From: Crocosphaera sp. UHCC 0190
Lineage (GTDB): Bacteria; Cyanobacteriota; Cyanobacteriia; Cyanobacteriales; Microcystaceae
Reading direction: 5' to 3'
NCBI RefSeq assembly: GCF_034932065.1
Contig: NZ_JAYGHP010000003.1
Location: forward strand, 310,001 to 374,000
Length of the DNA stretch: 64,000 nt
Shown: positions 5,094 to 38,727 of the stretch, one piece after another
Layout of the letters: every line of letters starts with the position of its first letter
Position numbering within the stretch: the first letter of the stretch is position 1
Translations under genes and position numbers: made by a program
Notes under the pieces: model-generated
Told to the model about the DNA's origin: nothing
The model's database searches: none
The model's input: the letters and a program-made list of their open reading frames with translations, nothing else

Positions 5094-5121
5094 GTAGGGG
5101 CAATTTATGAATTGCCCCTAC
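5094..5121. repeat. 28-bp palindromic repeat (GTAGGGGCAATT arms)
   Basis: An inverted repeat with arms GTAGGGGCAATT and AATTGCCCCTAC around a 4-base centre, lying in the 268-base gap between higB and sufR. It belongs to the same family as the palindromes at 7562, 32510 and 38702 (GTAG...CTAC ends, 26-28 bp). The rest of the gap is AT-rich and shows no gene. Confidence 0.75.
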
Positions 5122-7561: not shown

Positions 7562-7589
7562 GTAGGGGCAAACGGCCGTTTGCCCCTAC
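7562..7589. repeat. 28-bp palindromic repeat between sufB and sufC
   Basis: A perfect palindrome with arms GTAGGGGCAAACGG and CCGTTTGCCCCTAC, 10 bases after the sufB stop and 37 bases before the sufC start. As RNA it would form a stable hairpin inside the sufBC transcript and might attenuate or stabilise it. It shares its ends with the copies at 5094, 32510 and 38702. Confidence 0.8.
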
Positions 7590-8397: not shown

Positions 8398-8468
8398 ATG
8401 ATTGATAGGGTAAGTAACTATTAATATTTACATAGAACTTACCAAAAACCAAAGTATAGGCGTAAATT

Positions 8469-8495
8469 TAGGGGCTTAATATTATTAAGCCCCTA
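8469..8495. repeat. 27-bp palindrome, likely bidirectional terminator
   Basis: Arms TAGGGGCTTAATA and TATTAAGCCCCTA flank a single central base. It lies between the convergent sufC and DCC genes, and its last three bases encode the DCC stop codon. A near copy sits upstream of the DCC gene at 8925 and a third, partly decayed, at 39433. As a hairpin it could end transcription from both sides. Confidence 0.7.
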
Positions 8496-8903
8496 TAGTT
8501 TGTCAGTTTCATGACAACCAAAAGGATAAGGAGCATCATAAGTTTTCTCTCGTTTACCAAACCAATTATAACGATTATCTCGTACCTGTTCGTAGGTTTT
8601 ATCCCCCAACCATTTCATTCCTGGTAAACTGCGATAAGCTAGAATAAAGGCTTGTCCTAATGGCAATAAATTAACAATTTCCTCTGCCGCGTTGCTTCCT
8701 TGCCAACGGTTATTAGGGTTATTTCCATCAATTAAAATCATCCCCATTTCACAATCTTGGGCAGTAATCTTAAATTGTTTTAAAGTTTCTTGATCTTGCA
8801 TCGGAATATAATCAAATAAATTCCCTTGATCAAACTTAGCTAAAACCTGGGTAAACGTTGCACAAAGATTACAATTGCCGTCATAAATAATGTGATAAAC
8901 CAT
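8493..8903 (-). CDS. DCC-family thiol-disulfide oxidoreductase-like protein (DUF393)
   Basis: A 136-residue protein of the DCC/DUF393 family, a thioredoxin-like group of predicted redox proteins with no firm physiological role. The N-terminal motif is DGNCNLC (residues 8-14), where family members usually have DGxCxxC; both cysteines are kept. The middle region FDYIPMQDQETLKQF and the C-terminal PGMKWLGDKTYEQVRDNRYNWFG are typical. The gene lies convergent to sufC and is flanked on both sides by copies of one palindromic repeat, so it may be an inserted cassette. Any link to Fe-S assembly would be by proximity only. Confidence 0.85.
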   Translation of the reverse strand: MVYHIIYDGNCNLCATFTQVLAKFDQGNLFDYIPMQDQETLKQFKITAQDCEMGMILIDGNNPNNRWQGSNAAEEIVNLLPLGQAFILAYRSLPGMKWLGDKTYEQVRDNRYNWFGKREKTYDAPYPFGCHETDKL

Positions 8904-8924
8904 GTTTGAAAATCCGATTATATT

Positions 8925-8952
8925 GTAGAGGCTTAATATTATTAAGCCCTTA
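8925..8952. repeat. 28-bp palindrome, second copy flanking the DCC gene
   Basis: Shares the core AGGCTTAATATTATTAAGCC with the copy at 8469, with arm ends GTAGAG and CTTAG. It lies just upstream of the DCC start and downstream of cruG on the minus strand, where it may also act as the cruG terminator. Confidence 0.7.
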
Positions 8953-8976
8953 GAAAATTCTCCTCAACCCGTCACA

Positions 8977-32025: not shown

Positions 32026-32223
32026 CGATTTGAAGATTTTAAGGACTATATGTAAATGAGATTTTTGTTAGACACTCATAGTTTAATTTGGTTTTTTTCG
32101 GGCGATTTACGACTTAGCGATACAGTGCGTAATATAATGGAGGAGGTTCCTATTTTAAGTAAAGATTTAGCTTTTGATTCTTACAATATTACTCGTATTT
32201 GGAATAGTTCTCCATTTCTTTAA
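32026..32223 (+). pseudogene. VapBC toxin-antitoxin remnant
   Basis: An antitoxin tail reads RFEDFKDYM-stop (32026-32055), similar to the C-terminus of DUF2281 VapB proteins, and runs directly into an ATG at 32056. That frame gives 55 residues: MRFLLDTHSLIWFFSGDLRL is a PIN-domain VapC N-terminus with its first acidic residue (LDTH). It is joined in frame to PILSKDLAFDSYNITRIW, the PIN C-terminus. The middle of the domain, with the other catalytic acids, is deleted, so the toxin is dead. The 170 bases between the WD40 start and this remnant contain a GGATTAACAGGATTTTTTAGG stretch of a type scattered in cyanobacteria, and nothing else that I recognise. Confidence 0.7.
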
Positions 32224-32822
32224 TAATCTTCATTGTTTCAACACTAACATTACATACTTTATGTAATAAGTCAATTACTTGTTCTTTATAATCTGCAAAT
32301 CGATAATTATTGAATTTTTCAGCAATGGTTTTATCTTTGGGTTTCTTTTCTTTATATTGATCTAATACCCATTCTAAAGCGCAACGGTTCCCTAATTTGT
32401 ATTCCCAAGCAATGGGGGGTATTCCTTCTAATATTGTCACCTCATCAATGATGATTTTTCCTTGGGTTTTATCTGCTTTTAGTTTGGGTTTTGGGGTATT
32501 TTGTAGTTTGTAGAGACGTTTCATGAAACGTCTCTACAGGAGGGATATCAATACGGTTGAGGGGATAAGGGTTGATGGTTTCATAGTTAATATGTAATTC
32601 CATCAGTTTTTGTCCCCAGTTTACCCATTGAAAAAAGTTGTCATATAAGGGAAGTCTGGGAAAGTCTCGTTTAAGGTTAAGTTCGTATTTTTGGCGATAT
32701 TCAGGGTGATGTAAGACTGCATAGGTGTAATGAAATATGTCTAGTTTAGTGATAGTTTTGTTTTGATAATTGGTTTGTATTTGAGTTAGTCCCCAGTCGG
32801 TTATATTGTCTATATAAAGTCT
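32189..32822 (-). pseudogene. Type ISP restriction-modification enzyme remnant, split by a palindromic repeat
   Basis: Frame one (32822 down to a stop at 32469) reads NITDWGLTQIQTNYQNKT, then KLDIFHYTYAVLHHPEYRQKY and WGQKLMELHINYETINPYPLNRIDIPP. Frame two (to 32189) reads KPKLKADKTQGKIIIDEVT, GIPPIAWEYKLGNRCALEWVLDQYKEKKPKDKTIAEKFNNYRFADYKEQVIDLL. Together these are the C-terminal specificity region of type ISP (LlaBIII-like) helicase-methylase-nuclease enzymes. A 28-bp palindrome (32510-32537) lies at the join, and deleting it exactly restores one frame. The upstream nuclease, helicase and methylase parts are absent. Confidence 0.85.
32510..32537. repeat. 28-bp palindrome inserted in the type ISP remnant
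   Basis: A perfect palindrome with arms GTAGAGACGTTTCA and TGAAACGTCTCTAC. Its length (28, one more than a multiple of three) explains the frameshift in the surrounding remnant. It shares the GTAG...CTAC ends and size with the palindromes at 5094, 7562 and 38702. Confidence 0.85.
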
Positions 32823-38701: not shown

Positions 38702-38727
38702 TAGGGGTTAACGGCCGTTAACCCCTA
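38702..38727. repeat. 26-bp palindrome between convergent genes
   Basis: Arms TAGGGGTTAACGG and CCGTTAACCCCTA, preceded by G on the left. It is close to the 7562 palindrome in its ends and ACGGCCGT centre. It lies between the convergent genes at 38148 and 38738 and may end transcription of both. Confidence 0.7.

Follow-up and report, generated by a model that had tools for sequence, protein, structure and literature searches.

Very small cyanobacterial repeats (SDR), reportedly described by Elhai et al. in 2008 as mobile and in some cases as carrying compensatory changes, are said to lie in part inside heptamer arrays or minitransposons. A passage of PMC4390886 attributes to Elhai 2008 the finding that SDR5 inserted precisely in HIP1. 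According to Di Nocera, De Gregorio and Rocco (2013, PMC3733652), GTAG-tagged REPs are short dispersed palindromes starting with GTAG; GTAG-12, -15 and -16 occur in cyanobacteria (Cyanothece, Anabaena and Nostoc strains), such repeats sometimes lie inside genes, in other taxa at least, and RAYTs have been proposed as their movers. The same paper gives a CGTC tag at the end of the RPE sequences of R. conorii. The family described here is a tractable case for asking how the smallest mobile-looking bacterial repeats originate and persist: its dozens of copies have fixed ends and a nearly constant length, some of them lie in frame within conserved genes, and orthologous sites in different species show co-changed arms.

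The window, by which we mean the whole 64,000-nucleotide stretch of DNA that was analysed, contains at 32510-32537 a strandless 28-bp palindrome, GTAGAGACGTTTCATGAAACGTCTCTAC, which matches there with 0 mismatches, whereas 100 shuffles gave 0 matches. Pairing is perfect over 30 bp (32509-32538) when the flanking T/A pair is included. The same 28-mer occurs at 8 exact places genome-wide and at 36 places with at most 3 mismatches, compared to 0 in a reversed control. A previous reading of this DNA from its letters alone (hereafter the sequence-only reading) had placed a perfect 28-bp palindrome between two frames of a type ISP enzyme remnant, and our analysis bears out both its position and its perfection. 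The remnant is 634 bp long (32189-32822, minus strand) and covers only positions 168-342 of 342 of the Type_ISP_C specificity domain (PF18135); because it is this short, the other domains of a type ISP enzyme cannot be in it. The assignment to a type ISP enzyme also held, as PF18135 is matched by both parts: the upstream part (32538-32822, minus strand), ending ...RIDIPP, at positions 168-254 (E 2.6e-33), and the downstream part (32189-32509, minus strand), which reads KLQNTPKPKLKADK... to a stop after YSKYE, at positions 267-342 (E 7.7e-18). Continued into the palindrome, the upstream frame gives VETFHETSLQ. On the minus strand the sequence reads ...ATT GAT ATC CCT CCT, then 28 bp, then AAA CTA CAA AAT ACC CCA..., and omission of the 28 bp joins CCT CCT to AAA CTA in a single frame, as the sequence-only reading had stated. 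By these domain matches the gene is a type ISP specificity-domain remnant truncated N-terminally, and, since it begins within the Type_ISP_C domain, it is dead whatever the palindrome did.

Across the genome, the pattern GTAGRGRC N10-24 GYCYCTAC is found at 84 places versus 1 in the reversed control. Length and flanks were examined in 65 palindromes, drawn from the window and from 60 genome stretches chosen among the matches listed, with L161 (which failed the pairing filter) and L186 and L188 (off pattern) left out of the count. Sixty-one of these are 28 nt long, three are 29 nt and one is 27 nt, and the bases outside GTAG...CTAC are unconserved save for a shortage of G. Direct repeats in the flanks of the 65 copies were at or below chance for k = 1 to 9, except at k = 4 (2 observed versus 0.3 expected), and a fixed target duplication was rejected because flank matches lie near chance. 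The family thus consists of a sharply bounded 28-bp unit that lacks a target duplication; it has the form of a short (20-40 bp) multicopy palindromic repeat and lacks the short direct target repeat at both ends that marks a target-duplicating MITE. Three further members lie in the window, all strandless: GTAGGGGCAATTTATGAATTGCCCCTAC at 5094-5121, GTAGGGGCAAACGGCCGTTTGCCCCTAC at 7562-7589, and a degenerate 29-nt palindrome, TTAGGGGCTTAATATTATTAAGCCCCTAT, at 8468-8496. Similar palindromes outside the strict pattern are seen at 38702-38727 (TAGGGGTTAACGG/CCGTTAACCCCTA) and at 8920-8958, the latter with a 19-nt arm pair.

By the similarity of their flanks, thirteen palindromes, among them the doubtful L139, were marked as belonging to one MITE-like element, and these are not independent of each other. 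This element has the ends ATACCAAATCCG and CGGATTTGGTAT, with a 28-mer palindrome mid-element in the copies seen (L143, L153, L166, L180, L184 and others, in G000), and its central bases occur in both orientations. A search with its joined flanks gave 23 matches; wherever the two halves of a copy were both matched, a palindrome's length separated them, and an empty copy was not among them.

We compared the linker of the window's remnant with those of other type ISP loci (94 linkers compared, about five of them incomplete). A family palindrome is present in the window's remnant and in 3 of the 93 other loci (L010, L065 and L072, the first two being loci L115 and L109 of genome G040), so the palindrome is far from general in this linker and most homologues are without it. 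In G040, which has nine type ISP copies with a readable linker and a tenth without the linker, 5/9 linkers contain a GTAG palindrome in frame (two sequence types among the five), 3/9 a C/G-rich repeat and 1/9 AGAAACCAGGTTTCT, and two type ISP copies in G056 have AAATTCA-like heptamers in the linker. Small repeats thus accumulate in this linker: C/G-rich stretches or heptamers resembling AAATTCA were seen there in L122, L110, L112, L113, L116 and L117, which belong to other genomes. G056 is a palindrome-rich genome. A tree of 89 proteins groups the window's remnant with L006 (100/79) and then with L123 (95/74), apart from the G040 copies, in a topology in which no starred set contains the remnant and which is compatible with one origin shared with the G040 copies. 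Because these two nearest rows, whose grouping has no starred support, are without the palindrome, the window copy probably arrived after the split from L123 and L006.

The sequence-only reading took the restored frame as direct evidence that such palindromes insert cleanly and as a definition of their exact boundaries. The second part stands, in that the unit is discrete and sharp-ended, although this follows from the family copies (28 nt in 61/65, unconserved flanks, no target duplication) and not from the frame. The first does not: once two frames differ, omitting 28 nt joins them in 1 case of 2, and one restored frame, here or in general, is thus only weak proof of a clean insertion; as a proof of insertion we rejected it. 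Clean insertion in this gene is plausible nonetheless. Two accounts of the frame shift, a clean 28-bp insertion and a 7-bp duplication beside the palindrome, come out about equal.

In the first account, to which we assign a little less than an even chance, an intact linker received the palindrome by clean insertion, which would make the gene a direct empty-site proof. The two frames join exactly, target duplication is absent across the family, the dead gene is under no selection today for in-frame length, and a precedent exists in the SDR5 insertion into HIP1 credited to Elhai 2008 in the part of PMC4390886 cited above. The joined PPKLQN-TPKPK aligns with PLKNENATPKPK of L006 (80% DNA identity to the window gene, among the matches listed), with the K and N of the linker matching the K and N of relatives. 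However, the sequence-only reading had expected a gapless alignment across this point, and the joined reading, RIDIPPKLQN-TPKPK, is one codon shorter than its nearest relatives, RIDIPLKNENATPKPK in L006 and RIDIALKDENQTPKPK in L025/L123. Homologues thus have in part other sequence here (LKNENA in L006, LKDENQ in L025/L123, and an in-frame family palindrome in five of the nine readable G040 copies). Against a clean insertion also stand the 1-in-2 chance of joining, the position of the palindrome in phase 0 of the upstream frame (1 in 3 under random insertion), the lack of a clean empty site at 18 other loci, and a tandem repeat that crosses the edge of the palindrome.

This repeat, a perfect 7-bp tandem TTTGTAG TTTGTAG at 32500-32513 (plus-strand letters; CTACAAA CTACAAA on the gene strand), overlaps the palindrome edge, was absent from the sequence-only reading, and offers a nearby indel that could itself account for the frame change. 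Tandem repeats with a unit of 5 to 12 cross 2/132 palindrome ends, this case counted, compared to a chance rate of 108/20000, or 0.54% per end. In the second account, which we likewise place somewhat short of even, the palindrome originally lay in frame (...VETFHETSLQNTPKPK...), like those of the G040 paralogues, until a tandem duplication of CTACAAA put the gene, by then dead, out of frame. With one copy of the repeat removed, 10 nt separate CTAC from AAAACCC, the same spacing that the in-frame paralogues L106, L107, L108 and L115 show, and the upstream frame reads the palindrome in its sole stop-free phase, as do GltB, LeuRS, NifJ and a YdiJ-like gene. This account needs an extra event, however, and AAA CTA CAA AAT also aligns with the L006 host codons AAA AAC GAA AAT without any duplication. 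The joined flanks were searched in 50 genomes of the host's taxonomic family (its own included), where the best other identity was 82%, too remote to tell an insertion from a duplication; a palindrome-free allele with host AAACTACAAAAT would fit clean insertion, and one without AAACTACAAAAT would fit the 7-bp duplication.

Elsewhere, 7/66 palindromes scanned are read in frame within ORFs that extend for 90 codons or more to each side of them. Profile searches, run with fragments of about 229 aa whose NCBIfam scores consequently fall below whole-protein cut-offs, identified the hosts as glutamate synthase (GltB; NF008730, PF04898), the editing domain of leucyl-tRNA synthetase (LeuRS; TIGR00396, PF13603), pyruvate:ferredoxin oxidoreductase (NifJ; TIGR02176, PFOR_II), a TIGR03960 radical SAM protein, a YdiJ-like dehydrogenase (NF049975) and a Ser/Thr kinase (NF033483, 46.8 bits), the seventh being a RAYT-like gene. 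In the titles and abstract openings of open-access literature, in-frame GTAG palindromes in cyanobacterial GltB, LeuRS and NifJ were not found. Taking 28 bp out of any of these genes would disrupt its reading frame, so the window case does not generalise to them, and in living genes clean 28-bp gains would be removed by selection in any case.

Linker lengths in these genes, some of them counted by eye, differ from host to host. The NifJ linker has 11 codons in G000, G012, G024, G058 and G070, 10 in G006, G056 and G016, and roughly 20 in G009, and its equal length across five genomes means that there was no 28-bp gain in G000; of these five, only G000 has the full palindrome, and a perfect palindrome of 18 bp is centred on the same point in G012. 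The YdiJ-like linker likewise has 18 codons in G000, G024, G058 and G017 and 19 in G012. These equal lengths fit an overwriting of DNA already present better than they fit an insertion. LeuRS exceeds its counterparts in G012, G024, G058, G070 and G009 by one codon, and the GltB linker exceeds those of G058 and G012 by 8 to 9 codons. For the radical SAM linker the surplus is 13 codons over G058 and G024 and 6 over G017. The GltB site holds a different family palindrome in G024 and G017 and heptamers in G070; the kinase palindrome also occurs in G024 but not in G017.

The sequence-only reading had looked to empty sites of the other palindromes for confirmation, which did not materialise: 0/18 loci besides the window's remnant showed a clean 28-bp presence/absence when compared with relatives, which at 72 to 92% identity make this a coarse test, and clean cases may need same-species strains. 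For one genus (g14), 20 palindrome stretches were compared with 7 genomes (among the matches listed) and the 8 loci with both flanks or one long flank were taken; the same rule, applied to 22 intergenic loci of the window genome and their matches in 5 genomes, left 4. The remaining loci searched matched on one flank or none and are uninformative. Palindromes are absent from the relatives compared at L241, L239 and L253, where one flank or the spacing is unaligned; the L241 palindrome lies within an ACTTCTG array whose phase is kept (28 = 4 x 7). At 7562-7589 in the window and at L148, relatives have other, longer sequence, which at 7562-7589 is slightly longer in five relatives and contains heptamer-like repeats. 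The L151 site holds GTAGGGTGGGCAATGCCCACC or a near copy in G012 and G024; the occupant is also a near copy of the REP GTAGGGTGGGCATTGCCCACC that adjoins an IS200-like gene described below.

At other loci the site itself is shared. L243 has a palindrome of the GTAG...CTAC type, at the same site with different arms, in 7/7 genomes of genus g14, with pairing in 86/98 cells compared to 64.8 +/- 3.5 when shuffled (0/2000 as high, by a centred count). L242, L246 and L250 have the palindrome in 3/3 genomes compared, and L256 in 2/2, one of them 24 nt long and degenerate. At L165, where 4/5 genomes have the palindrome, 6/14 pairs are changed on both sides (0/500 shuffles as high), and covariation at NifJ is weak (15/2000 shuffles as high, with two of the five genomes palindromic there). 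These covariation and presence counts are of sequences, not events, and at L165 and the ISP paralogues one whole-arm replacement may account for many pairs. The L243 arm type of G024 and G058 occurs at 2 places in G024 and 1 in G058 at up to 2 mismatches, and copying from an abundant copy was rejected for it on that ground. That arms covary while their sites stay fixed suggests template switching, hairpin selection, or whole replacement.

Among plasmids, 11 and 10 records carry family-like palindromes. Two Planktothrix agardhii plasmids share one palindrome-bearing site, with no other record covering 80% of the stretch, and for the Anabaena, Halotia and Nostoc plasmid sites no record but themselves covered more than 80% of it. 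The family pattern was also seen in four stretches of viral contigs (L277-L280).

The genome contains a RAYT-like gene with family copies (L182:503-1114, minus strand, on contig C8 of G000), which scores 69.6 bits against NCBIfam REP_Tyr_transpos, below the cut-off of 80, and 24.4 bits against Y1_Tnp, with a cut-off of 23. Palindromes of the family lie at L182 positions 774, 1165 and 2031: one in frame after the NHIHG stretch, one about 80 bp upstream of the ATG, and the third 0.9 kb further. Homologues of this gene were found on plasmids in three records, none cyanobacterial. A second IS200-like gene (L105:1333-1908, contig C14 of G000) has adjoining copies of a different REP, GTAGGGTGGGCATTGCCCACC, so that the link between family and transposase comes from one gene cluster. 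In a Y1_Tnp search of the genome, L105 alone was among the matches, without the RAYT-like L182 gene.

Fixed ends, near-constant length, many copies and no target duplication argue for a moved unit, most likely moved by a RAYT-type transposase. The best overall explanation, which we regard as on balance probable, is that a REP-like unit was moved by a RAYT and then persisted at its sites while its arms were rewritten together. The palindromes form a dispersed, non-coding REP-like family with the fixed ends GTAG(A/G)G(A/G)C...G(C/T)C(C/T)CTAC and inner arms that are variable yet complementary. Movement would be of the single-strand, IS200-like kind and due at some time to a RAYT transposase, and the window copy probably came as a unit, without target duplication, into the type ISP linker. 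Long persistence at the site would have followed, with arms changing while staying complementary, which hairpin template switching during replication could maintain most simply.

A possible but less likely alternative is that the palindromes are mainly site-fixed hairpin loci that do not hop, with both arms co-rewritten by template switching, and that they persist across species and even genera, also in NifJ, GltB and LeuRS. Weaker still, and in our judgement quite improbable, is the proposal that palindromes were made and rewritten in place from quasi-palindromic host DNA by hairpin template switching and never inserted: the equal NifJ linkers despite a full palindrome in G000 only, the 18-bp palindrome at the same NifJ centre in G012, the covarying arms at fixed sites, and the description of template switching as making and keeping hairpins (PMC8794818) speak for it, but it could not produce the same outer sequence at unrelated sites, including 8 exact 28-mers in one genome, and the GltB linker, with its 8 to 9 additional codons, also speaks against it. 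Comparison of close strains could separate insertion, in-place rewriting and hairpin selection.

Set beside the described systems, a RAYT-moved REP-like unit has several partial counterparts. SDR5, which we liken to the family by description, sits in HIP1, whereas the flanks of the family show no fixed insertion target. Rickettsia palindromic elements (RPE), like the family, are in-frame palindromes inside genes (PMC3733652), and differ from it in tag and host. As in RAYT/REPtron systems, a gene resembling REP_Tyr_transpos has palindromes inside it and just upstream, although one such cluster was found here and the other IS200-like gene adjoins a different REP. GTAG-tagged REPs have their defining GTAG unpaired at one end, whereas the GTAG of the family pairs with CTAC; compared with GTAG-15 and -16 by description rather than consensus sequence, the family is nevertheless akin to GTAG-tagged REPs in its short dispersed GTAG palindromes, its possible link to a RAYT and its copies within genes. 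We class the palindrome at 32510-32537 as a cyanobacterial repeat of the GTAG/REP-like kind, and so as a variant on an already described type.
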